Positions 3,022-50,209 of a stretch of DNA of 64,000 bases are shown here, piece after piece. How positions within the stretch are numbered: position 1 is the stretch's first letter; the number at the start of each line of letters is the position of its first letter. This stretch comes from Daucus carota subsp. sativus. Lineage: Eukaryota; Streptophyta; Magnoliopsida; Apiales; Apiaceae. Below the pieces are notes generated by a model. It did no database searches. It was not told the origin of the DNA and saw nothing but the letters and a program-made list of their open reading frames with translations. The stretch spans positions 40,332,796-40,396,795 of the forward strand of contig NC_030386.2 in NCBI RefSeq assembly GCF_001625215.2. Direction: 5' to 3'. A program made the translations under genes and the position numbers.

Positions 3022-6000
3022 GTATCGCATACAAAGTGACAAGAAAGTTGCTATTTGTAGTGTACACCCATCTGAGCAAGCCACATTGCAGTGCTTAGGA
3101 TGTGTGAAGGCCAAAATTCCAGTTGCCAAAAGCTATCATTGCTCTCCCAAGTGTTTTTCTGATGCATGGCAACACCATCGTGTACTGCATGAGCGTGCTG
3201 CTAGTGCTTTAAATGAAAATGGAAATGAGGAGGAAGAAATATTTGGCCGCGGACTAGCTAGTTCACAATCTAATTCTAATCTGACCAGTGGTGCAGCACC
3301 ATTATATCCTGCTGCTGTTGCACAAAGAAGTGGTGGTGAAACTTGGTTCGAAGTTGGCCGTGCAAAAACTTATACTCCTACTGCTGATGACATAGGCAAT
3401 GTCCTTAAGTTTGAATGTGTTGTGGTAGACGCTGAAACAAAAGCACCTGTGGGACATGTCAATACAATATTAACTTCTCGTGTCATCCCAGCTCCATCGC
3501 CTAGTCCACGTCGCTTAATTTCCGTCAGTGGAGTTGATGTGACGGGGCATCTTGATTTAGATGGTCGTACAGCATCTGTGGGAAATTTCACCGTGCTGTC
3601 TTACAACATCCTATCTGACATTTATGCTACAAACGAAGTTTACAATTACTGCCCCACCTGGGCTCTGTCTTGGCCTTACCGCAGGCAGAATTTATTGCGA
3701 GAAATAGTCGGATATCGTGCAGATATTGTCTGTCTTCAAGAGGTAAATCAGCAAAAAAATTGTATAATAATATATCGGATTTGTTGGTTTGCATAGCAAT
3801 CTAGCTCTCGTAAGTGTGTTTTGAGTCATACCGCATTTCATAATTTTATAGCACGTTAGTACTTCTGCTATCAAGTTTTCCAGTGTAGATTTTATGAAGA
3901 ATTTGATTTTGTGTAGTTTCATGCAACTGTGTTTTATGTCATGGTAAGCTCTTCTGCGGGTCAACTTACATCATGATAGATACAGTTGGGTTTTGATGGA
4001 AATATGTTTTTGTATTCTTCCTTGAAGGTGCAAAGCGACCATTTTGAGGAATTTTTTTCCCCTGAGCTGGATAAACATGGGTATCAAGCTCTCTTTAAAA
4101 AGAAAACTGCTGAGGTTTGCTAACCTGCTAGTGTTATTATGCTAGTCTTCACAAATTATTTTTACTTATCATGTCGTTGCTCTTTTTTGCAGGTGTTCAC
4201 AGGTAATGTCAATGCCATCGATGGCTGTGCTACTTTTTTCCGTAGAGATCGTTTTGCACATGTCAAAAAATATGAGGTGAGGATGTGTGTTTATGTTTAT
4301 CAGTGTATGTTTTGGTGTGTAGTAGTTCTTTGATGATAAAATCTATGCCTTCTTACAGGTTGAGTTTAATAAAGCTGCACAATCTTTAACTGATGCGGTG
4401 GTTCCAACTGCTCAAAGGAAAACTGCCTTAAATCGATTGGTTAAGGTAAGATGGTTAAGGTAGAGTTAAAAAGTAGACGCGTATTGAAAATTGATATTGA
4501 CTGTATGAAATTTCCCTTTTTAGGATAATGTCGCACTGATTGTGGTTCTAGAAGCAAAGTTTGGAAATCAGGGGATTGATAATCCTGGAAAGCGGCAACT
4601 TGTATGTGTGGTAAGAAATTTTTTGCTCTTGCTTTAATTTTTTTTCCCTTTTCATCACATTGTGTTTTAAAATATCTGTAAGTTTGTAGTCTTGTAGAGA
4701 AGACCAGTATACTTGGTGTCTCTTAAAAACTGAGGCTGCTTTTTATTAAGTTAGGCAATAAGTAAGTCAACAAATATATTTACTTTTCAAAGCTGATATT
4801 GTTTTTTAGTTTATGAGTACATGTGGACTGTTTCACTAGTATATGTCCTCTCAAACATTATAACGATTGATGTTAATTTAAGAATATATAAGCTAAAACT
4901 GGCATGACCAAATTATGATTTTGAACAGTTAGTAAGGGCTCTATATTTATGCACGCACCCGTTTTTACTGTCTGAAAGAGTTAAGAGGTAGAAAGATATT
5001 GCCAAATTATGAGCAACATTGTTTCCAATTGATTGTGGTAGAATCTGGCATTCATCTGCAGAGCATGCAGAGATTTTTATAACACCATAGGCCTATAGCA
5101 TTTAATTATACGGTGCATCTGTACCACCTTTTGCCTGTAATGACCACTAAATCCCTCTTTAATTTCGAGTAGTTTTTAACTGTGTGATTCTATTTCTATA
5201 TTTGATATATTAGTGTATGATGGAATTCAAGTAATCACATTACTCTTTTGTATATGTCATTTTAACTTCTTTAATCACAGGCCAACACACATGTGAATAT
5301 TCACCAAGACTTGAAGGATGTCAAGATTTGGCAGGTTTTATTCACACTCCTTATCTACTTCACTTGAGTAATTTATCTCTCTGTTTATAGGACTCAACAT
5401 TGATGTGCAGGTCCACACTCTCCTGAAAGGACTGGAAAAGATAGCTGCTAGTGCTGACATCCCCATGTTGGTGTGTGGGGATTTTAATTCAGTACCCGGA
5501 AGGTGTGGGTTTTTTTCCTAGATAACAAGCTGCTAAATAGTCCAGATCATATCGTATGTAGAAGTTAAAATATTATATTAGTAATGTACTGAGCTGATAT
5601 ATATGCTTCATTCCAGTGCTCCTCATGCACTTCTTGCATTGGGTAAAGTTGATCCTATGCATCCAGAGTTGGCAGTAGATCCTCTGAATATCCTGCGCCC
5701 TGCCACCAAGCTGACACATCAGTTGCCATTGGTAACAACATAACTTTCATAATTTGATGCTTTTACAAATTGTTGATTGCATTTATTATACCTATAAATA
5801 ACATAATGGAGGTATTATCTGAATAAGGTGGCCTTTAATATTGAAGTCCATGCGTAAATGTCCCACTGTTTACAGGTTAGTGCATATTCTTCCTTTGCGA
5901 GAATTGGGGCAGGTCTTGGTTTTGAGCAACAGAGGAGGAGAATGGATCCTAATACGAATGAACCTTTATTTACAAACTGCACCAGGGATTTTATTGGTAC

Positions 6001-6410
6001 CCTTGATTACATATTTTACTCGGGTATATTTGCTATTCTTATATGTTTTTTTTTAAAATTTATTGATTCAGTAGTCACATCCTCTTTCGCTTCGTCTTAG
6101 ATTTTTATTCTAAAGCTTAGTACCTCGCGCTTACTCCCCCAATTTTCTTTAGATCACAAAAATTCATGCTTAGATCTCGTTTTACACGAAGATGATGCTA
6201 GATTTTCATTAAACCAAAGTCTAATACACATGAAATATTAATGATGATTGTTGTGTTGTTTCAGCGGACTCTTTAACCGTGGAATCTTTATTAGAGCTTC
6301 TGGATGAGGATAGCTTGAGAAAAGACACAGCACTTCCTTCTCCAGAGTGGTCCTCAGATCACATAGCACTTCTAGCTGAATTCCGCTGCAAGCCTCGGAC
6401 TAGACGATGA
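3022..6410 (+). CDS. CCR4: CCR4-type poly(A) deadenylase, 5' partial
   Basis: Catalytic subunit of the CCR4-NOT complex, which shortens mRNA poly(A) tails in the cytoplasm. Ten exons are visible: 3022-3742, 4028-4114, 4193-4276, 4359-4445, 4524-4610, 5281-5334, 5411-5502, 5617-5731, 5876-6023 and 6265-6410 (TGA), giving 540 residues in one continuous frame. Near the start is a MYND-like cysteine/histidine cluster (CLGC, CSPKC, HHRVLH). The endonuclease-exonuclease-phosphatase domain begins at FTVLSYNILSD and shows CLQEV, GDFNS and a terminal SSDH, the usual metal and catalytic positions. The first base completes a TGG codon whose TG lies in a missing exon; plant CCR4-1/2 proteins are about 600 residues, so about 55-60 are missing upstream. 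All introns are GT-AG. Arabidopsis CCR4-1 and CCR4-2 are the closest proteins I remember. Confidence 0.95.
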
Positions 6411-6738
6411 CGACGAAGATTAGGCAAGTTTCTTCTAGACTCTGAAAACCGTTGACGCTTTTAGTTTATTGCTGTCAGGTTCCCACTTTCCTGCTGTAAA
6501 TTAGATGGGTGTAAACTATAACACCCGAAAATCTTTGCATCGTACTCTATAATTATATCACTTGTCTTGTAATTTCTAGAAACATTTTTTTTGCATATAC
6601 AATTCATGGTTATGCCTTATATGGTGTTGAGATGTTGTAAGATCCAAGGTTTGATGGTGGAGATCAATGCAAAAGATGCATGTGATTTTAGGATTTAAGA
6701 CGTCTCTTTAGTCCAAATTCAATGTTCATGGATGAGAA
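6411..6738 (+). other. 3' flank of the CCR4 gene
   Basis: Non-coding sequence after the CCR4 stop, presumably the 3' UTR. TTGTAATTTC-type and AT-rich stretches near 6540-6600 could serve in polyadenylation; no strong signal is decisive. Confidence 0.4.
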
Positions 6739-30582: not shown

Positions 30583-30763
30583 TGTTGGGCCTGCTAAGCG
30601 AGCCTAACTCCACAAGAGTATGATATTGTCCGCTTTGGGCCTAGCCCGCACGGTTTTGTTTTTTTGGCACCTCCCAAAAGGTCTCGTTCTATTGGAGTTG
30701 TTCTAGCGGCTTATATTCTAGCTTTCGGCCCCTCCCACAACCGATGTGGGACAACTCCTAACA
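30583..30763 (-). repeat. TRIM LTR, inverted copy
   Basis: 181-bp copy, in reverse orientation, of the LTR at 31098-31277 and 31481-31662. It ends TG...CA in either reading. The 5-bp CTGGC directly before it is repeated directly after the last LTR at 31663-31667. Confidence 0.85.
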
Positions 30764-31097
30764 ATCTCCCCCTTCACACATCGGGCTCGACACCTGTCGA
30801 ATTCTGCCTCCTAACGTGTGATCGGGCTCCCCTAAGCCCAAAGCGGACAATATCGTACTCTTGTGGAGTTAGGCTCGCTTAGCAGGCCCAACAAAGTGGT
30901 ATCAGAGCGAGGTTGGAACGGTCCGTAACAATCTAAAGTGGGCTCCAGAACGGGCCTAGGAAAAGGCAGATGGGCTACCCAGAATGAGTTTAAGGATAAA
31001 GGCAGGTGGGTCTTCCAGTTTGGGCCTAGGGGAGCCCGATCACACAACAGGAGGTAGAATTCGACAGGTGTCGAGCCCGATGTGTGAAGGGGGAGAT

Positions 31098-31277
31098 TGT
31101 TAGGAGTTGTCCCACATCGGTTGTGGGAGGGGCAGAAAGCTAGAATATAAGGAGGCAGAACAACTCCAATAATACGAGGCCTTTTGGGAGGTGTCCAAAA
31201 ACAAAGCCGTGCGGGTTAGGCCCAAAGCGGACAATATCGTACTATTGTAGAGTTAGGTTCGCTTAGCTGGCCCAACA
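31098..31277 (+). repeat. TRIM LTR, middle copy
   Basis: 180 bp, from TGTTAGGAGTTGTCCCACAT to GGCCCAACA, followed after two bases by the primer-binding site TGGTATCAGAGC. It differs from the right LTR by several substitutions and small indels. Confidence 0.9.
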
Positions 31278-31480
31278 AGTGGTATCAGAGCGAGGTTGGA
31301 ACGGTCCGTAACAATCTAAAGTGGGCTCCAGAACGGGCCTAGGAAAAGGCAGATGGGCTACCCAGAATGGGTTTAAGGATAAAGGCAGGTGGGCCTTCCA
31401 GTTTGGGCCTAGGGGAGCCCGATCACACGTTAGGAGGCAGAATTCGACAGGTGTCGAGCCCGATGTGTGAAGGGGGAGAT

Positions 31481-31662
31481 TGTTAGGAGTTGTCCCACAT
31501 CGGTTGTGGGAAGGGAAGAAAGCTATAATATAAGCAACCAGAACAACTCCAATAGAACGAGGCCTTTTGGGAGGTGCCCAAAAAAACAAAACCGTGCGGG
31601 CTAGACCCAAAGCGGACAATATCGTACTCTTGTGGAGTTAGGTTCGCTTAGCAGGCCCAACA
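31481..31662 (+). repeat. TRIM LTR, right copy
   Basis: 182 bp, with the same TGTTAGGAGTTGTCCCACAT start and CCCAACA end. The target duplication CTGGC follows immediately. Confidence 0.9.
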
Positions 31663-32191
31663 CTGGCAATGCAAGTTGAGCATAGATACAAGCTGGCAAT
31701 ACAGCTGGCAAGTTAGTTACATAGATACGGAGTTGTGTTGGTATTATGCATAGGTAGCTTCTCTATATATATATATATACAGTGTAATCAAGTTTGTACA
31801 GAAGACATTTTCTCAATATACAGTTTTATCATCTCCTTCACATTGCTTTGCCTGGTGGCCCTGTGCAGGAACCTTTTTTTTCCCTCCTCTTTACGGGATA
31901 TTGAGGATTCGAATGGCTAGTTTTTTATTATCTTCCTCTTATTTGTAGTTGTAGCCTTGTAAGCATACATGGAGATCAAGAGAATGTTCAAATCGTTCCG
32001 CTTATAAGTGCAATTTATAGAGCAAAGCCCAAACATTACCATAACACATTCTTAGTATTTGCATGTTGTAGTTAAAAGTTCAAACCAAGTATTCGAACAC
32101 CACTCTTCTTTCTTAGTGTAATAAGAAAACAATATGCATTGAAATATAATAAAACATACGAAACAAATAAAGGTCTGATTCAGTTTCATCA
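31663..32191. other. Spacer before the tandem triplication
   Basis: It contains further copies of the CTGGCAATACAG-like motif seen left of the TRIM array, and a short TA run near 31765-31780. I see no gene. Confidence 0.6.
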
Positions 32192-33821
32192 TCTATTTAA
32201 ATTATAAATCCTACTACATATTTCAGTATGTTTTTACTACTTTGTCCCTCAACATTTTATGTATCTTCAAAGTATTGCCATTATATACGGAATATTTATA
32301 CGGTATAAACAGGTGTTCAAATCTCAGCCACACATTCTTCTTTCTGGGCTTCTCCAAGATAACTAGGGTTTTCAAATTTGAAAACATTTGGTCTAAACTC
32401 TCGCGCCTGAGCTTCATCTCCCTCCGCCATTTCGCCCTTTCATATCACACTAATCATCTTCTCTGACATTTGGTTCTTGATTTTATTCAAATTTGAATTC
32501 CTCTGTGTGTATCTATCTGTATCTCTCCTTCTTACTCTCATATATTCGTCTCTCTCATATTATAATATATTGCCATTGATGATTGATTGTTCTTGCAGAA
32601 GCTTGATTCAAGGATATTTTGAGGAGTATTGATTTATGATTTGAAGTGCAGCTGGTAAATCAATTCTCCGATTAAATCTCTCTCGCCGCAGTTGGTAATC
32701 GGTCTACCCCTCTCTGTTTCTTGATTTACTTTAGTTACAGTTGATGCATATTTGTTAGTATTTGTTCGAATATATATTTTTTGCTTTTTTTTTTCTTTTT
32801 CAGTTTCACAGCTTGAGATGGATGTTGTTTGATATGGCCAGTTTGTTTTGGAGATGGATTATTGTGTTTTATTTGTGCAGTACAACTATTTGATATAAGT
32901 TCTGAGAGAAATTTTAACTGTTTTTTCTAAATTTCAGATTCTGAGTTATATAGAGATATGTTGCTTTTGTACACATAGATTTTGTGACGCTTTACTCATT
33001 ATATATCGGGTAATTATCTAATATATGATGATGCATTCAATTTAATATATTTGCTGGTGAGTTTTGTTTGTGTGTCAAACCCTAAGTTATAAACATAACA
33101 CTATTGATGATACAAGTTCGAAAGATAAATACTAAAGGTGATAGAAGACGAAGAGTTTTAATTAAGCTTAAATTGCATCTGGAAGCTATTTCAACGTATA
33201 ATACTGTCAGTTTGTCAAAACACAATCTTCTCTTTTTACAAAATATATAATTAAGACCATGCTTTTCAGCATGTTTTGCTTACTAACGTATTTTGTTACT
33301 TAATTATATTGAGGACTTAAGTACCGGAAAAAGACACACACACATATATGGTAAAGTATTAGGTTGTTTATCATTAGAGAGACTGGGACATGCTACAAAA
33401 ATTAAGTTACACCTTTTTGATGGTTTTGTTCTATACATGACAAACTGACGATATTGTTGAAATGGTTATGAATTTGTTATAATATCTTAACTGATTTACA
33501 TTTGAGTTTCATGTTTTGGAGTATTTTAATTATGCGAGTTAGAGTTTCAACTCTTTAAGTTCTAAAAAGGAGACTCTTGAACCTGGTCTGGGACTGTGTT
33601 TGAAATTGAACTGAATTAATACTGGACAGAATAACACATACTGGACTGAATTGATATTGAATGCTAATATTTGCACAGTTTTAGTCCCAAATATTCCTTT
33701 TATATTGTTACTCATCTTCACTTAACATCACCTGCAGATAGTCATAAGCAACGGATAATCAATCGGCTTGACGGGGCAGGGCAGCATTCGGATGCCTTTG
33801 ATTTCGCAACGGAAAGAAATT
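32192..33821 (+). repeat. Tandem unit 1 of 3 (1630 bp)
   Basis: First of three consecutive units. It holds a CT-rich leader-like segment, several intron-like boundaries (TTCTTGCAG, TTTGTGCAG, CACCTGCAG) and, at its right end, the start of a small exon encoding DSHKQRIINRLDG and SDAFDFATERNF. In units 1 and 2 that exon is cut by the next unit and runs into unrelated codons. I do not recognise the protein. Confidence 0.95.
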
Positions 33822-35451
33822 TCTATTTAAATTATAAATCCTACTACATATTTCAGTATGTTTTTACTACTTTGTCCCTCAACATTTTATGTATCTTCAA
33901 AGTATTGCCATTATATACGGAATATTTATACGGTATAAACAGGTGTTCAAATCTCAGCCACACATTCTTCTTTCTGGGCTTCTCCAAGATAACTAGGGTT
34001 TTCAAATTTGAAAACATTTGGTCTAAACTCTCGCGCCTGAGCTTCATCTCCCTCCGCCATTTCGCCCTTTCATATCACACTAATCATCTTCTCTGACATT
34101 TGGTTCTTGATTTTATTCAAATTTGAATTCCTCTGTGTGTATCTATCTGTATCTCTCCTTCTTACTCTCATATATTCGTCTCTCTCATATTATAATATAT
34201 TGCCATTGATGATTGATTGTTCTTGCAGAAGCTTGATTCAAGGATATTTTGAGGAGTATTGATTTATGATTTGAAGTGCAGCTGGTAAATCAATTCTCCG
34301 ATTAAATCTCTCTCGCCGCAGTTGGTAATCGGTCTACCCCTCTCTGTTTCTTGATTTACTTTAGTTACAGTTGATGCATATTTGTTAGTATTTGTTCGAA
34401 TATATATTTTTTGCTTTTTTTTTTCTTTTTCAGTTTCACAGCTTGAGATGGATGTTGTTTGATATGGCCAGTTTGTTTTGGAGATGGATTATTGTGTTTT
34501 ATTTGTGCAGTACAACTATTTGATATAAGTTCTGAGAGAAATTTTAACTGTTTTTTCTAAATTTCAGATTCTGAGTTATATAGAGATATGTTGCTTTTGT
34601 ACACATAGATTTTGTGACGCTTTACTCATTATATATCGGGTAATTATCTAATATATGATGATGCATTCAATTTAATATATTTGCTGGTGAGTTTTGTTTG
34701 TGTGTCAAACCCTAAGTTATAAACATAACACTATTGATGATACAAGTTCGAAAGATAAATACTAAAGGTGATAGAAGACGAAGAGTTTTAATTAAGCTTA
34801 AATTGCATCTGGAAGCTATTTCAACGTATAATACTGTCAGTTTGTCAAAACACAATCTTCTCTTTTTACAAAATATATAATTAAGACCATGCTTTTCAGC
34901 ATGTTTTGCTTACTAACGTATTTTGTTACTTAATTATATTGAGGACTTAAGTACCGGAAAAAGACACACACACATATATGGTAAAGTATTAGGTTGTTTA
35001 TCATTAGAGAGACTGGGACATGCTACAAAAATTAAGTTACACCTTTTTGATGGTTTTGTTCTATACATGACAAACTGACGATATTGTTGAAATGGTTATG
35101 AATTTGTTATAATATCTTAACTGATTTACATTTGAGTTTCATGTTTTGGAGTATTTTAATTATGCGAGTTAGAGTTTCAACTCTTTAAGTTCTAAAAAGG
35201 AGACTCTTGAACCTGGTCTGGGACTGTGTTTGAAATTGAACTGAATTAATACTGGACAGAATAACACATACTGGACTGAATTGATATTGAATGCTAATAT
35301 TTGCACAGTTTTAGTCCCAAATATTCCTTTTATATTGTTACTCATCTTCACTTAACATCACCTGCAGATAGTCATAAGCAACGGATAATCAATCGGCTTG
35401 ACGGGGCAGGGCAGCATTCGGATGCCTTTGATTTCGCAACGGAAAGAAATT
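33822..35451 (+). repeat. Tandem unit 2 of 3 (1630 bp)
   Basis: By eye indistinguishable from unit 1 across its length. It joins unit 1 at GAAAT|TCTATTTAAATT inside the small exon. Confidence 0.95.
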
Positions 35452-37082
35452 TCTATTTAAATTATAAATCCTACTACATATTTCAGTATGTTTTTACTAC
35501 TTTGTCCCTCAACATTTTATGTATCTTCAAAGTATTGCCATTATATACGGAATATTTATACGGTATAAACAGGTGTTCAAATCTCAGCCACACATTCTTC
35601 TTTCTGGGCTTCTCCAAGATAACTAGGGTTTTCAAATTTGAAAACATTTGGTCTAAACTCTCGCGCCTGAGCTTCATCTCCCTCCGCCATTTCGCCCTTT
35701 CATATCACACTAATCATCTTCTCTGACATTTGGTTCTTGATTTTATTCAAATTTGAATTCCTCTGTGTGTATCTATCTGTATCTCTCCTTCTTACTCTCA
35801 TATATTCGTCTCTCTCATATTATAATATATTGCCATTGATGATTGATTGTTCTTGCAGAAGCTTGATTCAAGGATATTTTGAGGAGTATTGATTTATGAT
35901 TTGAAGTGCAGCTGGTAAATCAATTCTCCGATTAAATCTCTCTCGCCACAGTTGGTAATCGGTCTACCCCTCTCTGTTTCTTGATTTACTTTAGTTACAG
36001 TTGATGCATATTTGTTAGTATTTGTTCGAATATATATTTTTTGCTTTTTTTTTTTCTTTTTCAGTTTCACAGCTTGAGATGGATGTTGTTTGATATGGCC
36101 AGTTTGTTTTGGAGATGGATTATTGTGTTTTATTTGTGCAGTACAACTATTTGATATAAGTTCTGAGAGAAATTTTAACTGTTTTTTCTAAATTTCAGAT
36201 TCTGAGTTATATAGAGATATGTTGCTTTTGTACACATAGATTTTGTGACGCTTTACTCATTATATATCGGGTAATTATCTAATATATGATGATGCATTCA
36301 ATTTAATATATTTGCTGGTGAGTTTTGTTTGTGTGTCAAACCCTAAGTTATAAACATAACACTATTGATGATACAAGTTCGAAAGATAAATACTAAAGGT
36401 GATAGAAGACGAAGAGTTTTAATTAAGCTTAAATTGCATCTGGAAGCTATTTCAACGTATAATACTGTCAGTTTGTCAAAACACAATCTTCTCTTTTTAC
36501 AAAATATATAATTAAGACCATGCTTTTCAGCATGTTTTGCTTACTAACGTATTTTGTTACTTAATTATATTGAGGACTTAAGTACCGGAAAAAGACACAC
36601 ACACATATATGGTAAAGTATTAGGTTGTTTATCATTAGAGAGACTGGGACATGCTACAAAAATTAAGTTACACCTTTTTGATGGTTTTGTTCTATACATG
36701 ACAAACTGACGATATTGTTGAAATGGTTATGAATTTGTTATAATATCTTAACTGATTTACATTTGAGTTTCATGTTTTGGAGTATTTTAATTATGCGAGT
36801 TAGAGTTTCAACTCTTTAAGTTCTAAAAAGGAGACTCTTGAACCTGGTCTGGGACTGTGTTTGAAATTGAACTGAATTAATACTGGACAGAATAACACAT
36901 ACTGGACTGAATTGATATTGAATGCTAATATTTGCACAGTTTTAGTCCCAAATATTCCTTTTATATTGTTACTCATCTTCACTTAACATCACCTGCAGAT
37001 AGTCATAAGCAACGGATAATCAATCGGCTTGACGGGGCAGGGCAGCATTCGGATGCCTTTGATTTCGCAACGGAAAGAAATT
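35452..37082 (+). repeat. Tandem unit 3 of 3 (1631 bp)
   Basis: It differs from the other two by one substitution (CGCCACAG for CGCCGCAG near 35947) and one extra T in a homopolymer near 36050. Its right end runs into the undisturbed exon end (FATERNFLG, then AG|GTAAAA at about 37086-37092), so unit 3 keeps the original context. Confidence 0.95.
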
Positions 37083-37088
37083 TTTTAG
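36988..37088 (+). pseudogene. Unrecognised small exon, possible gene fragment
   Basis: It follows a CACCTGCAG acceptor and ends ..TTTTTTAG|GTAAAA, encoding about 30 residues (DSHKQRIINRLDG...FATERNFLG). The frame is open and the splice sites are good. I do not recognise the family, and the flanking exons of a complete gene were not found. It may be the 5' part of the same broken locus as the auxilin-like exons downstream. Confidence 0.4.
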
Positions 37089-37092
37089 GTAA

Positions 37093-37988
37093 AAATTCAG
37101 TCTTTCTAACATGAGCTATGCATGCAGTGTCACATAGAAATCTATCAGAAGCGAATTGTGACGTTTGCGTGATCCTGTGGGGAAGCCACAAGGTGTGATG
37201 GGTTGGTGGCTTATTCGAGCTGTTAAGAATTGATGGATCATGCATATATCTTCAACATATTGGTAAGAATTGAAGGAGAACAGGACACTACTGCATCAAA
37301 TAGGTTCAGATGAAATTTAGTTCACATATTAGAGCAATAGAAATCCTATGATTTTTAACATAGCAATATAAATAATGTTCTTCCTCTCAGATGTTCGTTT
37401 TTCAGAGATTGATTCATGTAGATAGATTTGAGAATGAGTATTATTTTATTATGATAATTATATGTTCTTTAATGAGAGTTTGAGTGTGCTTACTGACACT
37501 ATTTCAGACTGGTGATTGATGATTCAGAAGACAATTAAATAGGTGTAGAGCAATTCAAATGTAGGATATAAACTTGCAGACTTATTTCATTTCTGTTTGA
37601 CGAGTTATAAATGTGATGTAGAGCTAACACCCAAAGTTGTTCCACATCGGATTTTGGACTTGCCAATTTGTTAGGATCTGAAATAAGCCATGTAACTACA
37701 CAAGTGATGTGTACATTTGGGTATGTTCATCTCTTATGTTCTCAATAAAATGCTCAAGTGCGAAAGTTTGTTCTTTGCATCGTGCTCACTGCTGCTTATT
37801 TCTGTAGATATGTTTCACCGGACTATTTAAGTGCAGGGATGCTAAACAAAGGGAGTGATCTTCTTGCACAAAAAGAGGAAGCTGGGAAAAATGTACAAAC
37901 TTTTTTAGTTGATTTCTTTGCACTTGCATTTAGTTAAATTTTATCTGCCCTAATAATAATTTATTAAACTTTTTTAGTTGATTTCCAG
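37093..37988. other. Intron-like sequence between gene fragments
   Basis: Mostly non-coding. A segment at about 37625-37760 contains TTGTTCCACATCGG, resembling TRIM LTR starts, and ends near AATAAAATGCTC, so a degraded LTR-like remnant is possible. A short exon-like piece may lie at about 37810-37895. Confidence 0.4.
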
Positions 37989-38786
37989 TTATTGCACTAG
38001 CAGAATCCCTTGATGCCGAAATCAAAAGATGGTCCACTGGGAAGGAGGGGAACTTGCGTGCATTGCTCTCAACCCTGCAATATGTATGTATAAGGCCTTG
38101 CTTATTATTGCTGCACAATATACATTATGCTTTGCTAAGAAGTTTTTGTTTTGAGTTTACACTCTTTCATCTTTAGAAATAGAGGTCACAGTCAGGCTGA
38201 CACTTCCGGATTGCATGCTCCTTAACTAATTGACGGAAAATCGTCCTTGCTCCCAATTTAGATATACTCTTCTTTTTGTGGATAATTCAGAGAGCTAAAT
38301 ATGAAGCTCTTAACTAGAGCGGGCATATTATTTCAAGCTTTTGACTTTAATATTAAAAGAATTGCATTGCAGTCAGTGAGGATTAGATTCCTTCTGAATT
38401 AAATAATTTTATCCTATAAAAGCTCCTCATGATTACACCGGTTCCTGATCTTTCAGTGTTATACTGTTCTGCATCCCTTAATAGAATATCTAATCAGTTA
38501 GTCATGAAGTTCCTGGACAAAAGATGACTCGGCATTGGTTAACATAGTTCAAGATTAACAAACTAACTAATCGCAGCCAGCATTTGATTTTCTGAACTTC
38601 TGTCTGCAGATCCTTGGTCCTGGTAGTGATTGGCAACCAATATCCCTGACAAATATTATAATGTCTGATGCTGTAAAGAAAGCTTACTGAAAAGCCACTC
38701 TCCATGCACATCCAGACAAGTTGCAGCAGCGAGGGGCAAGCATCCGGGAAAAGTACATTTGCGAGAAGGTTTTTGATCTCCTCAAA
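37989..38786 (+). pseudogene. Auxilin-like J-domain gene, broken
   Basis: Two exons are clear. 37989-38083 encodes [20 protein letters not shown] and RALLSTLQY. 38610-38786 encodes ILGPGSDWQPISLT, then KKAY, a TGA stop at 38688-38690, then [15 protein letters not shown] and [12 protein letters not shown]. This is the C-terminal J-domain of plant auxilin-like (clathrin-uncoating) proteins, with the HPD motif kept. The stop replaces the usual arginine after KKAY, and the last exon (the EAWNKF part) is not found downstream. No intact upstream part is present. It is therefore a gene fragment or pseudogene. Confidence 0.85.
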
Positions 38787-40590
38787 GTATGTATATAGTT
38801 TCCAATATCTGATTCGTTTTTGGCAATTCTACTGGCAATTCTTTAGGTAATTGCCTATAGAAGTTGATTTTGGTCTGGATGCAACTTGCAAGAGCTGCTG
38901 CTATAATTTTTGTTAGTTGTAATTTATTTTGAGACTACTGTTGCTGAGTATTGTACTATTGTTGCAGAGCTTTTTCGAGAAGCTGTTACTTTTTCCCAAA
39001 TGCATCCCAATCCAATTTCAATTTATAATTCAAATTCTAAGTCTCAGCAAGGTAAATTGTACTCTCTCTTTCTCTCATGTATGAAATATAATTTAAATTT
39101 CAGATTTAGTAATCTTTTATATTTTTAATCTTGGCCTTTCTCATTTTTTTGGGTGATAATTTAGTGTTGCTTCGTCTTGCAGATGTAATTATAATTCGAC
39201 TAATATACATGTTTTTAATCCATTAAAAATATATTTTTAATGGAGTTGCTTTGCACTTGAGAAAAATATATTTTTCATACTGTTGGGTATGAATATACAT
39301 GTAGAAAAATACATTCTACACTATCCTTTTTAGCGTTTCTTCTACTGTTTGCTTAGTAGTAAGCGCTATGCAAGTGTAGAAATGAATTAAAACTTATGTC
39401 TTAAAATTTCGCAATGACCTCTCTTGGTGTATCTATCAGTTAAATATCTGGTCTGAATACTTGACTTTGCATGCAGTTGATTATATGAAGTGGCTACAAA
39501 ATGATATAAAATTTATCTTCCATTTTGTGCTGACATATATTAAGTTTCAATCAAATTGTGTGATTTCTTAGTTTTTTGCTCTTGGTTTTTTAACAGTGAG
39601 TCAGTGACAAACTTTGAGCATCTCGAAATGCGTTGTCCAAAGCTTGACGTCTCTGACGAGTTCACACTTGGTATCCCTGGATACACATCTGCATTTTCTC
39701 ACTGTAGTAACAAGGTGACTATTGCCGAAGTTTCTGGGGGGACGGGAGAAATAACTATATTGGAGCAATTCATCCAAGAACATGTAAACCCTTGAGAATT
39801 TTTTTTTTTATTTCATTTAGTTAATTAGGTTTCAAATATTAAGTATTGCACCAGAATTGTTAAACTGTGAGACATAATAATTTTCTTAGATGGATTTGGT
39901 TGCGCTATTATTGCAAATAATCTGTTGCAAGAGCCTTGCATATTTTTTTGAGCACTGTGATTATATAACAGCCAAGACTTGATTTCAGGAATATACTTTA
40001 CACTTCTTTATGTGTACTTTAGTGTAGTTTATGGTTTTACCTTGCTGCTAATATGTTGATTCAATAGTCTTTTTTTTTTATTTTTGCAGAAATAGAAAAA
40101 GTGATCACCTAAGGCTTATTGCTGACAAATTTTCTGCATGTTCGGTAGGAAAGGTGGTCAGATTTTAGGTGTTGTCTAACTTGGTTTCCTTTATTCAGTA
40201 GGGAGGCTGCTCTCAAAACACAGTGATGATGTTGCTTTAGTAAGATGTGTTGTTTTTACTTAACAAAAAGAAAGAAAAAACTGATAATTATGTCTAGGAG
40301 TACAAATATCCTGCATCACTTATTATATACTATTATTTGAAAATTTAAAAATCAAAATTGTTGATAATCATTTTTAGCTTATAATCTTTATGGACTTATA
40401 AGTCGAAAGCAATTAATTGATAAAGTTTGGGTAACTAAATTATAAGTCGATTTTCGACTTATAAATCAGAATGTAAGAAGTTAAAAATTCTAAATTTTTT
40501 AGCACCTTAATTTTAATTTAGGCCAAAATTTATCTTCACTCATACAAATTATAATTTTACTTTTAAACTTAATGGATCTATATAAAATAA
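38787..40590. other. Non-coding stretch with possible exon debris
   Basis: An open segment at about 39597-39795 after a TTTTTAACAG acceptor (encoding CPKLDVSDEFTLGIPGYTSA) could be an exon of an unknown gene, but no partner exons join it. The rest is AT-rich and non-coding. Confidence 0.35.
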
Positions 40591-40599
40591 TTTATGTCT

Positions 40600-40601
40600 A
40601 C

Positions 40602-40640
<39 letters not shown>
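40600..40640. repeat. TA microsatellite
   Basis: Imperfect (TA)n tract interrupted by one TG. Confidence 0.9.
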
Positions 40641-40859
40641 AATTATTTTTGCTAATTCAATGTCAAATAAATTCTGTTTAGGTTGGAGTTGAAGTCAATT
40701 GACATCATAAAGTATCAAATATTGATGGCTACTTTCAAATTTTGAAAACAACTAATATTTGGGTCTTGCCTTCCTATTTTTAAAACACAATTTAAATTTC
40801 TATACTATATTTTGTACAATTTTATTTCTATAAATTATATTTATAGTTATATATATTTG

Positions 40860-41300
40860 GGACACTAACACGCTAACACGAAACGAAAAAAATTATTATG
40901 GGTTCTCATTTTTTATACACGAAAGTACACGAACATGAAAATACACGATAGATTTCGTGTCGAATATAGATTTTCATTTTGGGTACACGAAATACACGAA
41001 AGTAAATGAAAAATTTGTACATGATTATATATTTGTTATATGTTATAATATATTATATATATAATTGTGTAAAATTATACAAGGAAATTTATATTAAAAC
41101 TATTTTTAATTAAAATTATATTAATGTATTTATATACAATCTACATGAAAAATATACGAAAAAAACACAAAACGTTTCGGATCGTGTACGGGTTTCAAAT
41201 TAGGTACACGAAACCAATAACGGGCGGATACGAGTTTCACTTTCGAGTACACCAAACGAAAGTATACGAAACGAAACGATTGCCACCTTTAATCGTACCA
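40860..41300. repeat. TACACGAAA-rich repeat
   Basis: Clusters of ACACGAAA / TACACGAA motifs on both sides of an AT-rich centre, ending in CGAAACGATTGCCACCTTTA. Its build matches the plant hAT-like repeats at 62455-62982 and 29788-30338, but I could not define its termini. Confidence 0.5.
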
Positions 41301-41507
41301 AATATTGGACTAATGAGATTAGCTATATTATCGGATGTTTTTCAGTTTAGAATTTATTTTAGATAAGAACAAAAAATAGAAAAAAATTAAAATAATTTTC
41401 ATCCAAAATCAAAAAACCTCAACTATAATCAAATACAAATTTATTCAAACATATTTTTTTCAAAAACATTATTTTTCAACGCCATGCGGAGCGGGCAAAC
41501 ATACTAG

Positions 41508-42356
41508 TCAAGATAATAATGAGTACTTCTTTCCTGTGAAAGCCTGAAATTTTTTCTCTTCCTTGTCTTCCTTGGTCTCCGGCTTCTTCTTAGCTGCAGA
41601 GCACTCTCCATCCAAACCACAAACCACAGATGTTCCAACATGTTTCTTCGAATCAGGAGCTGCTGCTGTCACTTTGCCATCTAATCGCCTAGAAACGCCG
41701 CTAAAAGGCCTAAAAACAACATCCTTCTCCGCTTCCATAACATCTTGATCAGCTTGCTCATCCCTCGTCTCGATCACTTGAGGCTCTTCATGATAATCCA
41801 GCGGCTTCTCAAACTCTAGCTCACAATCCGTCTCAAACAACGACACAGCATCCTTAGGCATCGCTTCTACAATGTCAATATAATACTCCTGATTTTCATG
41901 ATTCACCATAATCGTATCTCCAATAGTAAGACATGCAAAGTCCCTCAAGAGCCTCTCCATCACTTCCTTGGGATTCTCAAGATTCTTCACAAACTCACTG
42001 CTATGAGGCTGCACCTTCAAGAACCTCCCCTTCGAAAGACCCGTGTACTCAATTTCCACGAGCTGGCCTTGTTCCAAACTCAAATTTCTCATCATCCAAT
42101 CGGGAAGAAACACACTGCCCTCCTCTGCACTAAACTCGAGAACTCCACAGTGCGAGACTTTCTCCAAGAAAGGATTGGTGATCATGAAAGTCAAAGGGTA
42201 CTTGACTTTTCTCGAAAGGAGAACGTCAAGAGCTGAAGCAGGCATTATGATTTTGTTGCCAATTTCGCAGTGTGGCTTGTTGATGTGGGAGAGTGGATGG
42301 CAGAACAAGGTGAAGCCTGGTTTGTTGACCGCATGGGATTTTGAATTTCCAGCCAT
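41508..42356 (-). CDS. UFD1: UFD1-like protein, intronless
   Basis: UFD1 family protein; UFD1 with NPL4 is the cofactor that lets the CDC48/p97 ATPase extract ubiquitinated proteins. One exon, 282 residues, ATG to stop. The N-terminal double-psi-barrel region shows FTLFCHPLSHINKPHCEIGN, KIIMPASALDVLL, SHCGVLEFSAEEG and LPDWMMRNLSL. The second half of the fold has CLTIGDTIMVNH, YYIDIVEAMP and ETDCELEFEKPLDY. The C-terminal part has FSGVSRRLDGK and ends KFQAFTGKKYSLLS. Typical plant UFD1 is about 315-320 residues and, as I recall, split by introns, so a single exon suggests an old retrocopy. The frame is undamaged, so it may function. A broken relative lies about 6.7 kb away in the same orientation. 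Confidence 0.93.
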   Translation of the reverse strand: MAGNSKSHAVNKPGFTLFCHPLSHINKPHCEIGNKIIMPASALDVLLSRKVKYPLTFMITNPFLEKVSHCGVLEFSAEEGSVFLPDWMMRNLSLEQGQLVEIEYTGLSKGRFLKVQPHSSEFVKNLENPKEVMERLLRDFACLTIGDTIMVNHENQEYYIDIVEAMPKDAVSLFETDCELEFEKPLDYHEEPQVIETRDEQADQDVMEAEKDVVFRPFSGVSRRLDGKVTAAAPDSKKHVGTSVVCGLDGECSAAKKKPETKEDKEEKKFQAFTGKKYSLLS

Positions 42357-42985
42357 TGGAAAAAGTTGTTTGTGATTTTCTTAGGGTTTGATTATGATGA
42401 TTTATGCGTGCCAAGTTCGGGAATTTATAATACTGTGTTTATGAAAACCTACTCCTATTAGTCTTCTGCTTTCTTAAGTATTAACCGACAGGCGACAGGA
42501 AACTAAAAAAATATTTCAAGTAACATAAATAAATATCTTGTGTAAACGAATATTTCAGGTAAAAAGAAGAATAATTAAACCTAAGTGAAATATGTACTTA
42601 TTTTCTTCTGTTAAAGTTAGAGTGAAAGAGTAATATTCAACAAAAGTTAAATTTATATAAAATAATAAAATTTTAAAAAAATAAGTATAAATACAAAAAT
42701 ATAATAATATACGAATATTAATATCAACAAATTTGAAATGGCAAATTAAATTATTCGAATACATGTGCTAACCATAATAAATATTTCAGCGACTTTTGTT
42801 CAATGAATTAATCTTATTTTTTTACTATTGAAAGTAAGTTGAAAATTTGTTTTCAAGCCTACACGACTAATGTGATATTTTGCGATGAATAAAATTATAA
42901 AAGTAATCCTATGACTCGCCAGCTGGAGACAGGTACAGGTCATCCTTTCATTGCTTAGCCATTGCAGGAATTTATTTTATGGGTC
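42357..42985 (-). other. Upstream region of the UFD1-like gene
   Basis: AT-rich flank without open frames of note. The promoter is presumably near 42360-42450, but no element is clear. Confidence 0.4.
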
Positions 42986-48103: not shown

Positions 48104-49357
48104 CATGGGTACTTCATTCCACTGAATGGCTGAAACTTTTTCTCTTCAATGTTGTCTTTTGGCTTCTCTTTCTTCAAATTTACTCTGTTTTCACCTTCAT
48201 CTTAGCTGCTGAGCAGTTTGCTGCAGATACTTGTCCATCCAACCTCCTAGAAACACCGATAAAAGTTCTGAAAACTGCATCATTTTCCAAGTCTGCCGCG
48301 TCTCCAGGTTCATCCCCTGGCTTGATTATTTCAGCCTCTTTAAAATCCAGTGGTTTCTCAAACTCTAGTTCACAGTCCCTCTCAATTAATACAGATACAG
48401 CATCCTTTGGCTTCACTTGAACAATATCAATAAAATAACTCTGAGTTTCATGATTCACCCTAATAGTTTCTCCAATAGTTACACATGCAAAGTCCTTCAA
48501 AATTCTTTCCATGACCTCTTTTGGATCCGAAAGATTCATAATCAATTCAGTACTATGTGGTTGTATCTTTAAGGATGTAGCGACCTGCATAGTCGATGTT
48601 TACAAGCTGGCCAGGTTGTAATGTCAAATGACTCATCATCCAGTTAGGAAGATACACATGACTCTCCTCTCCAGTCTCCACTGAACTCCAGAACCCCGCA
48701 GTGTGAAACTTTTCCTAGGAAAGGGTTTGTGATCGTAAAAGTCATGGGGTATTTGATTTTCTTCATCGATAGGAGTCCATCAAGAGCCGAAGCAGGCATT
48801 ATGATTTTGTTACCATCTTTACATTGATACTTGTTTTTCTGGGAGAATGGATAACATCGATAGGTGAAGCCAGGCTTTGATGCATCATCACCAGATCTTG
48901 ATGCACGTCGAGATCTTGATTTTCTGGCCATAAAGAGAAATTTAGAGATTGACTTTCCAGAATATTTTCTGCCCATAGAAAATATTCGAGAAATCGATTT
49001 TCTAGATTTCTTAGCCATCAAAGAGGATCGAGAAATCGATAGGAGTCCATCAAGAGCGGCAGCAGGGACTATATACTTGTTTATGCAGAAGAATGGATAA
49101 CATTGATAGGTGAAGCCAGGTTTTGATTTATTACCAGCTGTTGATGAAGAAGATGCCATGGACCAGAATCGAGAAAGATGTACTCGTATACGCTTGATTG
49201 TATCAGGGCATTGGATACTTTCCACTGATCTGAGTGCATTAAGAGCCGAAGTTGGCATTGCAATTCTATTGCGAGCTTTTGATGAAGAAGATGCACGTCG
49301 AGAAATCGGTTTTCTAGCCATGGAAGAAAATCGAGAAAGATGTACTGGGATATGCAT
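48104..49357 (-). pseudogene. UFD1-like pseudogene with repeated N-terminus
   Basis: Second UFD1-like copy, broken at least three times. The first frame (49357 to 48644) ends soon after SHCGVLEFSG. The homologous EESHVYLPNWMMSHLTLQPG continues in another frame; then SLKIQPHSTEL to KMKVKTE is in a third; a stop then separates the family-typical tail EEKKFQPFSGMKYP (about 48107-48150). Upstream of the usual start, the open frame carries two extra partial copies of the N-terminal module: NRIAMPTSALNALRS, and KPGFTYQCYPFFCINKYIVP with AALDGLLS. These come before the complete one (KPGFTYRCYPFSQKNKYQC, KIIMPASALDGLLS). Short ISR-x-FSM-type repeats lie between. It is related to the intact copy at 41508-42356. 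Confidence 0.85.
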
Positions 49358-50209
49358 GATTGCAGTTGGGTTTACTTCTTGTCTGAGAACTTTGTGAATT
49401 TATAATCGCAGTTTTCCAAAGGGAAACATAATCCGATTAGTATTTTGTATGCGTACTTGGTATAATTGACCGATAATCTGAAAATAGAACCTATTTGGAT
49501 GGTCTTGCCGCTTAACCAAATCCTAATCTCAACTACTTTTTGATATCATCATCCACCTGATTAAAAAAAAGATACTCGAAAATTTGAGACCATAGTATTA
49601 AATAGTTAGACATAATTAGACAATTTGAAGCCTTACCGGACTCAAGGTCGGTGATTTCGAAAGTCATGGGAGACATAATTAGAATCGTTTTTTTATAGTG
49701 GCGACTGTATACACAGATTAGGTGTAGAACTGCAGATTATGGTGATGCGTTCTTAAATCCGATGAGGAACAAGACATTCTTTCCGAAATCAAGCAGGACT
49801 ACCAAGTTGTACATATACTAATGATAGATTTATCTTGCATTCTGGAAAGATACAGTTTTCCGGAGGAAAAGAACACCGCCATAATGCCTAAGTTACTGTG
49901 ACGAACTTGATTATGTGAGCTAGCTGTTTGAATTACCTCTAATATGATAACGATGAGATTGCAGGCAACGATACTCAGTGTTAACCATATGTTCACCAAA
50001 ATATTAAGCTGTCCTGTCCTACTACCAAAAAATGTATATATAGTAATCTTGTGTCTAAAAACAGCCTTATAGGGATTTGAAGGTAAGAAAGAACGAATTG
50101 ACTCGATATAGGAGGCCAGCAGAGGCCGCTATACAAATATATGAATATTTGCTTTTCAAATATACATTGATTACATATTTTGATGGGGATGATGAGGAAA
50201 GAAAGAACA
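49358..50209. other. Spacer between UFD1-like copy and thioredoxin gene
   Basis: No coding feature is supported. The portion next to 50209 should hold the 3' UTR of the WCRKC thioredoxin gene. Confidence 0.5.

Follow-up and report, generated by a model that had tools for sequence, protein, structure and literature searches.

A Helitron-like element beside a UFD1-like gene in carrot carries its 5'-terminal 1,630 bp three times in tandem

Introduction

Canonical plant Helitrons open with TC and close with CTRR, carry a subterminal hairpin about 10-12 nt before the 3' end and insert between A and T without a target-site duplication; only their autonomous members encode the RepHel protein. Most truncated tandem Helitron arrays lie in plant centromeres.

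In plants, many Helitron arrays combine several 5' ends with a single 3' end, an arrangement for which Xiong et al. (2016), as relayed in excerpts of PMC12628747, credited rolling-circle replication; the same work is also cited in excerpts of PMC5876387. The arrays are described in the PMC12628747 excerpts as partially decayed, and those of PMC5148889 refer to truncated tandem Helitrons in plant centromeres. Excerpts of the latter source also cover the FoHeli elements of Fusarium, which are Helitron2-like and have multiple 5' termini, typically of <200 bp, that were explained by self-insertion. Helraiser studies describe precise cleavage at the 5' TC (excerpts of PMC5876387 and PMC4778049), a donor site that can be used more than once and junctions that are aberrant, and a replication fork has been proposed to form at the donor after 5'-end cleavage (excerpts of PMC5876387).

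Here, we describe an array on contig C6 of carrot, found in a window of 64,000 nucleotides (the whole stretch of DNA that was analysed; positions are counted from its first base). As in the plant arrays of Xiong et al., multiple 5' ends stand head to tail before a single 3' end. Whereas those arrays are partially decayed and centromeric as portrayed in the excerpts, the C6 array is young (units ~99.9-100% identical), carries gene fragments and lies beside genes, so that the joint between units is legible to the base. The FoHelis likewise have a repeated 5'-terminal part before one element, and FoHeli versions differ between genomes (excerpts of PMC5148889). The FoHeli repeats, however, are typically <200 bp long and belong to Helitron2-like elements, whereas the C6 repeat is 1,630 bp, is present three times and belongs to a canonical TC/CTAG plant Helitron. 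The mechanism proposed below has three features in common with Helraiser: the 5' TC is cleaved, the donor is used again, and replication has been proposed to start from the donor's 5' end. Helraiser, however, is an experimental system in human cells, and 5' partial tandem copies at the donor are not among the outcomes described in the excerpts of those papers. No paper listed in searches of the open-licence literature, most of them not specific to carrot, names the C6 locus itself. The C6 array belongs to the known plant tandem Helitron kind and is notable for its youth, length, cargo and location.

Results

A first-pass annotation of the window had reported a near-identical tandem triplication, and this was confirmed by comparison of the units (Table 1). 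Successive units start 1,630 bp apart in both cases. Unit 2 matches unit 1 at every base (1630/1630), and unit 3 departs from them by a G>A change at 35948 and by a poly-T run near 36045 that is one T longer. The window contains no N. Identity among the repeats begins at base 32192, and both joints have the same sequence, ...GGAAAGAAATT/TCTATTTAAATT... (slashes mark borders throughout), with parent sequences that overlap by 1 bp only (T). The units lie head to tail, so that three 5' ends (32192, 33822 and 35452) are present against one 3' end (41507). On its internal side the joint is an ordinary site, at which no CTRR-like stop signal and no notable hairpin were seen; a terminator-like hairpin at the joint was considered and rejected, as 143/200 and 165/200 shuffles (for the two strands) folded at least as well.

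Table 1. Positions of the C6 element, its parts, the adjacent host gene and the two-ended members of the family. Positions without a contig prefix refer to the window.
Feature	Position	Strand	Remarks
Whole Helitron-like element, non-autonomous, gene-fragment-carrying	32192..41507	+	9,316 bp; 5' part tripled; host A at 32191, host T at 41508; two-ended family element
Unit 1	32192..33821	+	1,630 bp; opens with 5' terminus TC
Joint 1	33816..33827	+	internal ...GAAATT joined to 5' terminal TCTATT
Unit 2	33822..35451	+	1,630 bp; same sequence as unit 1; opens with 5' terminus TC
Joint 2	35446..35457	+	same sequence as joint 1
Unit 3	35452..37082	+	1,631 bp; runs on into the remaining element; derived A at 35948
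Captured auxilin-type J-domain fragment	37994-38083 and 38610-38786	+	in-frame TGA at 38688-38690
3' end of element	41480..41507	+	weak subterminal hairpin (CGCCATGCGGAGCGGGC), then AAACATA, with CTAG at the very end; hairpin lacks one C relative to the family
Host UFD1-like gene	41508..42380	-	UFD1_N1 and UFD1_N2; stop codon 41508-41510 abuts the element 3' end
Two-ended family element	C2		
Two-ended family element	C7:22.35 Mb		2,355 bp
Two-ended family element	C3:60.22 Mb		5,236 bp
Two-ended family element	C5:4.77 Mb		2,257 bp
Two-ended family element	C3:50.78 Mb		6,329 bp

The genome (441,086,747 bases in 11 contigs) was searched with one unit, which gave at least 53 matches. With the best 40 of 50 candidates scored, these comprised the tandem units themselves, a single copy on C2 that is near full-length (99%) and a remainder of partial, more diverged matches. 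When the window was compared with 30 kb of C2, homology began with the opening base of unit 1 and again with that of unit 3, and ended at window 41507, a shared A (on the unit 1 side) and a shared T adding one base each. The C2 copy contains one unit and has identical ends, lies on another chromosome and is 98.9% identical at aligned bases (99.2% for window 35452-38793). It differs from the C6 element at 68/6043 aligned bases, or at 63/6031 when a misaligned patch (window 39298-39308) is dropped. The C2 copy is 7,190 bp long, whereas the corresponding part of the C6 element, counted with one unit, comes to 6,056 bp, and the gap is made up mainly of four C2-only stretches of 202 to 345 bp. These stretches (253, 345, 306 and 202 bp) lie at ~C2:56.683-56.686 Mb, and we take the ends of the first to be Stowaway-like.

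On C6 and C2 alike, the borders read A/TC...CTAG/T within unrelated flanks, which is the Helitron signature; the element thus has both the 5' terminus TC and a 3' terminus of the CTRR type, here CTAG, and sits between A and T with no duplication of the target site. The first base of every unit is exactly the 5' terminus of the transposon, and the tripled part is the 5' 1,630 bp of the element. We regard it as almost certain that the element is a Helitron whose 5' end is repeated. It lies beside genes on C6 (the window spans C6:40,332,796-40,396,795), about 0.5 Mb from the end of this contig of 40,885,772 bases. No unfilled relative of the insertion site was seen, the flanks having been compared with the window only.

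The first-pass annotation had taken the tripled stretch for the leader plus exon of a gene. This reading is incorrect, since the tripled sequence forms the 5' end of a Helitron extending to 41507, and what had looked like an expanded 5' gene region is a transposon 5' terminus together with captured leader-like sequence. The claim that the original end survives in unit 3 alone was borne out, as the single-unit C2 homologue continues across that point without a break. The statement that everything around the repeat is diverged was correct to the left of 32192, which has no C2 counterpart, but not for 37083-41507, which is 97-99% identical to the C2 element when aligned piecewise.

Both family ends were present in six elements among the fetched loci (Table 1), which are independent copies at unrelated sites. 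The base following CTAG was T in 8/8 occurrences in fetched loci (two of the eight from a diverged subfamily). Before the intact 5' TC, A was found at 7/10 fetched loci and T at 3/10, a count that leaves out decayed 5' ends without TC (L012, L016 and L022) as well as 5'-end pattern matches with four or more errors, which represent noise or diverged subfamilies and mostly also have A before TC. A GCCC...GGGC palindrome lies 11 nt from the end in 5/6 two-ended copies and is reduced to GCC...GGGC in the window copy. At window 41480-41496, the palindrome is one C shorter than in the five other two-ended members of the family. With RNA parameters, a 3' hairpin of 6 bp was predicted for both the window and the C2 copies; with DNA parameters, 71/200 shuffles of the last 60 bases of the window copy folded at least as well.

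A genome search with the 5'-terminal 150 bp returned 16 matches, spread over 14 loci. Several 5' ends occur together at 1/14 loci only (C6), so that the event giving multiple 5' ends is not frequent in this Helitron family. A 1.58-kb tandem duplication (91.5% identical) on C8 (L027, C8:5809000-5818999, positions 3309-6451) was considered as a second case but was not counted, because no recognisable Helitron 5' terminus marks its start. This duplication contains a leader-like module in common with the C6 element. Beside the C7 Helitron, an 847-bp direct repeat (95% identical) was observed at positions 987-1828 and 4683-5525 of L014 (C7:22347000-22356900).

The longest open frame in the C6 element is 142 amino acids and no RepHel is encoded, which makes the element non-autonomous. 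A source of transposase is probably present in the genome, since Helitron_like_N (PF14214) is common there: at least 168 matches were obtained with the best 150 of 344 candidates scored, and many of those listed lie in open frames. No RepHel gene with these same element ends was identified.

Judged by its sequence, the coding matter downstream of the units is captured debris. The only such matter recognised within the element is a fragment of an auxilin-type J-domain, which matches PF00226 with E 8e-4, below the curated cut-off, and has 3ag7_A as its best solved relative (E 6e-17). Its in-frame TGA stands at the same place in three copies (C6, C2 and the C3:50.78 Mb element). A genome search with the J-domain gave 21 matches, and the four closest (C6, C2, C3:42.53 Mb and C3:50.77 Mb) each have one TGA. 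Because the copies carry the TGA and the relatives at C6:15.08 Mb (93%) and C6:16.42 Mb (92%) do not, the fragment had been broken before it spread. Other gene readings of the locus were rejected. When nine frames around the unit were scanned against protein families, no Pfam match was obtained for the supposed last exon (the DSHKQRIINRLDGAGQHSDAFDFATERNFL frame), whose relative in L015 carries a stop. An RNA gene or snoRNA host was likewise discarded, as no Rfam match reached the gathering score in the window; the only hit in 31.6-41.5 kb had E 1.4, far below that score. A tRNA search found none.

On the right-hand side, the stop codon of the UFD1-like gene abuts the element 3' end, and for this reason the 3' untranslated region of the gene should now be Helitron-derived. 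A second UFD1-like gene is present on the minus strand at 48180-49399, where it is split over two frames and has an unusual repetitive N-terminal stretch. To the left of the element, an array with a period of 383 bp (2.2 copies) occupies 30832-31662 together with 30741-30763; its TGTTAGGAGTTGTCCCACATCGG end occurs as direct copies at 31098 and 31481 and as an inverted copy at 30741. We take the array at 30832-31662 to be TRIM-like.

For the timing of the triplication, substitutions relative to the C2 copy were compared across the units. All of these (14/14) are common to the three units, and one change, the A at 35948, separates unit 3, which agrees with the earlier description of the expansion as very recent. 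Base 35948 is G in C2 and in 7/7 aligned relatives, so the A is derived in unit 3. Six of the 14 shared changes could be polarised by the majority of relatives (alignments below 85 bits were left out), with three placed on the C6 branch, by votes of 3:2, 2:1 and 4:0, and three on the C2 branch; the other eight have no aligned relative. The C6 branch had, on these sequence votes, probably aged before the triplication. As 14 substitutions are common to the three units, the triplication postdates the C2/C6 split unless the units have been homogenised. Had the array been as old as that split, ~17 differences per unit pair would be expected, compared with 1 seen (probability of 1 or fewer, ~7e-7), a relative age that assumes no gene conversion among the units. 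At a plant substitution rate of 7e-9 per site per year, the C2/C6 split dates roughly to ~0.75 million years and the array roughly to ~30,000 years (95% range 0.7 to 163 thousand). For its part, the insertion at C6 may be recent and derive from a donor that the assembly lacks.

Discussion

Our preferred reading, to which we assign a probability of about 55%, is that a non-autonomous Helitron came to lie beside a UFD1-like gene and that its 5' 1,630 bp were later tripled by 5'-initiated, aborted rolling-circle replication, most likely in place. That the repeats begin exactly at the transposon tip suggests that the copying process of the element stuttered quite recently. A Helitron with gene fragments would have inserted between A and T next to the UFD1-like gene, and RepHel transposase from another element would then have nicked A/TC. 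Leading-strand synthesis would have been primed by the host 3'-OH, and the 5' part copied again until synthesis halted after ~1,630 nt. Rather than reaching CTAG, the new 3' end (...GAAATT) would have been joined to the displaced 5' TC end, the outcome being a partial copy upstream of an intact element. A second firing with the same joint, or unequal crossing-over, may have supplied the third unit; unequal crossing-over accounts for the identity of the two joints no less well than a repeated firing does. We infer the nick, the stop, the strand joining and the in-place occurrence from the anatomy of the locus. Replication that starts at a 5' nick and stops early would leave three 5' ends and one 3' end, which, together with the donor-site findings for Helraiser, favours partial re-replication in place. 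Weighing against this reading, the joint shows neither a CTRR-like stop signal nor a notable hairpin, several 5' ends occur at 1/14 family loci only, and no RepHel gene with the element's ends was identified. The general proposition that a Helitron is able to double its 5' part at the site it already occupies, by rolling-circle replication that stops early and joins its new 3' end to the displaced TC, is advanced more tentatively, at somewhat under even odds.

Alternatively, the array may have been formed before insertion, as a rolling-circle concatemer of truncated 5' parts plus one full element on a circular intermediate that then inserted at C6. Such a route gives the same anatomy, with many 5' ends, one 3' end and one A/TC...CTAG/T pair of host joints; it is the model credited to Xiong et al. 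(2016) in excerpts of PMC12628747, and circles are reported for Helraiser in excerpts of PMC4778049 and PMC5876387. If the C2 copy were the donor, however, the insertion would date back about as far as the C2/C6 split and each unit pair should show ~17 differences, whereas 1 was observed (P ~7e-7). Otherwise a lost or absent donor has to be invoked, with only two near-full-length copies present among the best 40 candidates scored. We consider formation on a circle unlikely, if credible. A conventional tandem duplication (through end joining or slippage during replication) with subsequent unequal crossing-over would be consistent with the 1-bp joint overlap, the identical joints and the near-identical units, and unequal crossing-over is the simplest route from two units to three. 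The start at the terminus would then be a coincidence or the result of a transposase break, but a random break would be unlikely to fall exactly on the 5' terminus, with one random breakpoint within the element expected to hit it at ~3/6056 (~5e-4), and this origin appears to us distinctly unlikely.

Self-insertion, whereby 3'-truncated copies would have entered A/T at the element's own 5' end repeatedly, has been proposed for Fusarium, where multiple 5' termini are reported in FoHelis (excerpts of PMC5148889). The base at the C6 joint is not forbidden under this scheme, as T/TC occurs at 3/10 family 5' ends. The same internal false 3' end would, however, have to be used twice, and that end has neither CTRR nor a notable hairpin, compared with CTAG/T at 8/8 family-like 3' ends. 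No solo truncated copy ending in ...GAAATT was evident among the best 40 of 50 candidates, and we hold repeated self-insertion to be highly improbable. An assembly artefact, with one or two units at the true locus, would be in keeping with units that are only one substitution and one homopolymer base apart. Against this, no collapse or expansion error could create the joint out of a genome with one unit, because the parents of the joint share only 1 bp, and the break coincides with a biological terminus. Furthermore, the likely source of the sequence, carrot DH1 v3, is described in excerpts of PMC10581907 as a doubled haploid with a PacBio and Nanopore assembly, which argues against haplotype duplication. 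The chance of an artefact therefore seems to us very slight; two units may have been miscounted as three.

Because the plant arrays that we found described are partly decayed and reported from centromeres, it is hard to see how they start, and the C6 array offers a small, fresh example together with a single-unit sister copy. It is also a case in which a transposon, not a gene, multiplies a leader-like region and mimics the triplication of a promoter. If duplication in place is true, captured leaders that putatively bear promoters could be multiplied in euchromatin without a new insertion.
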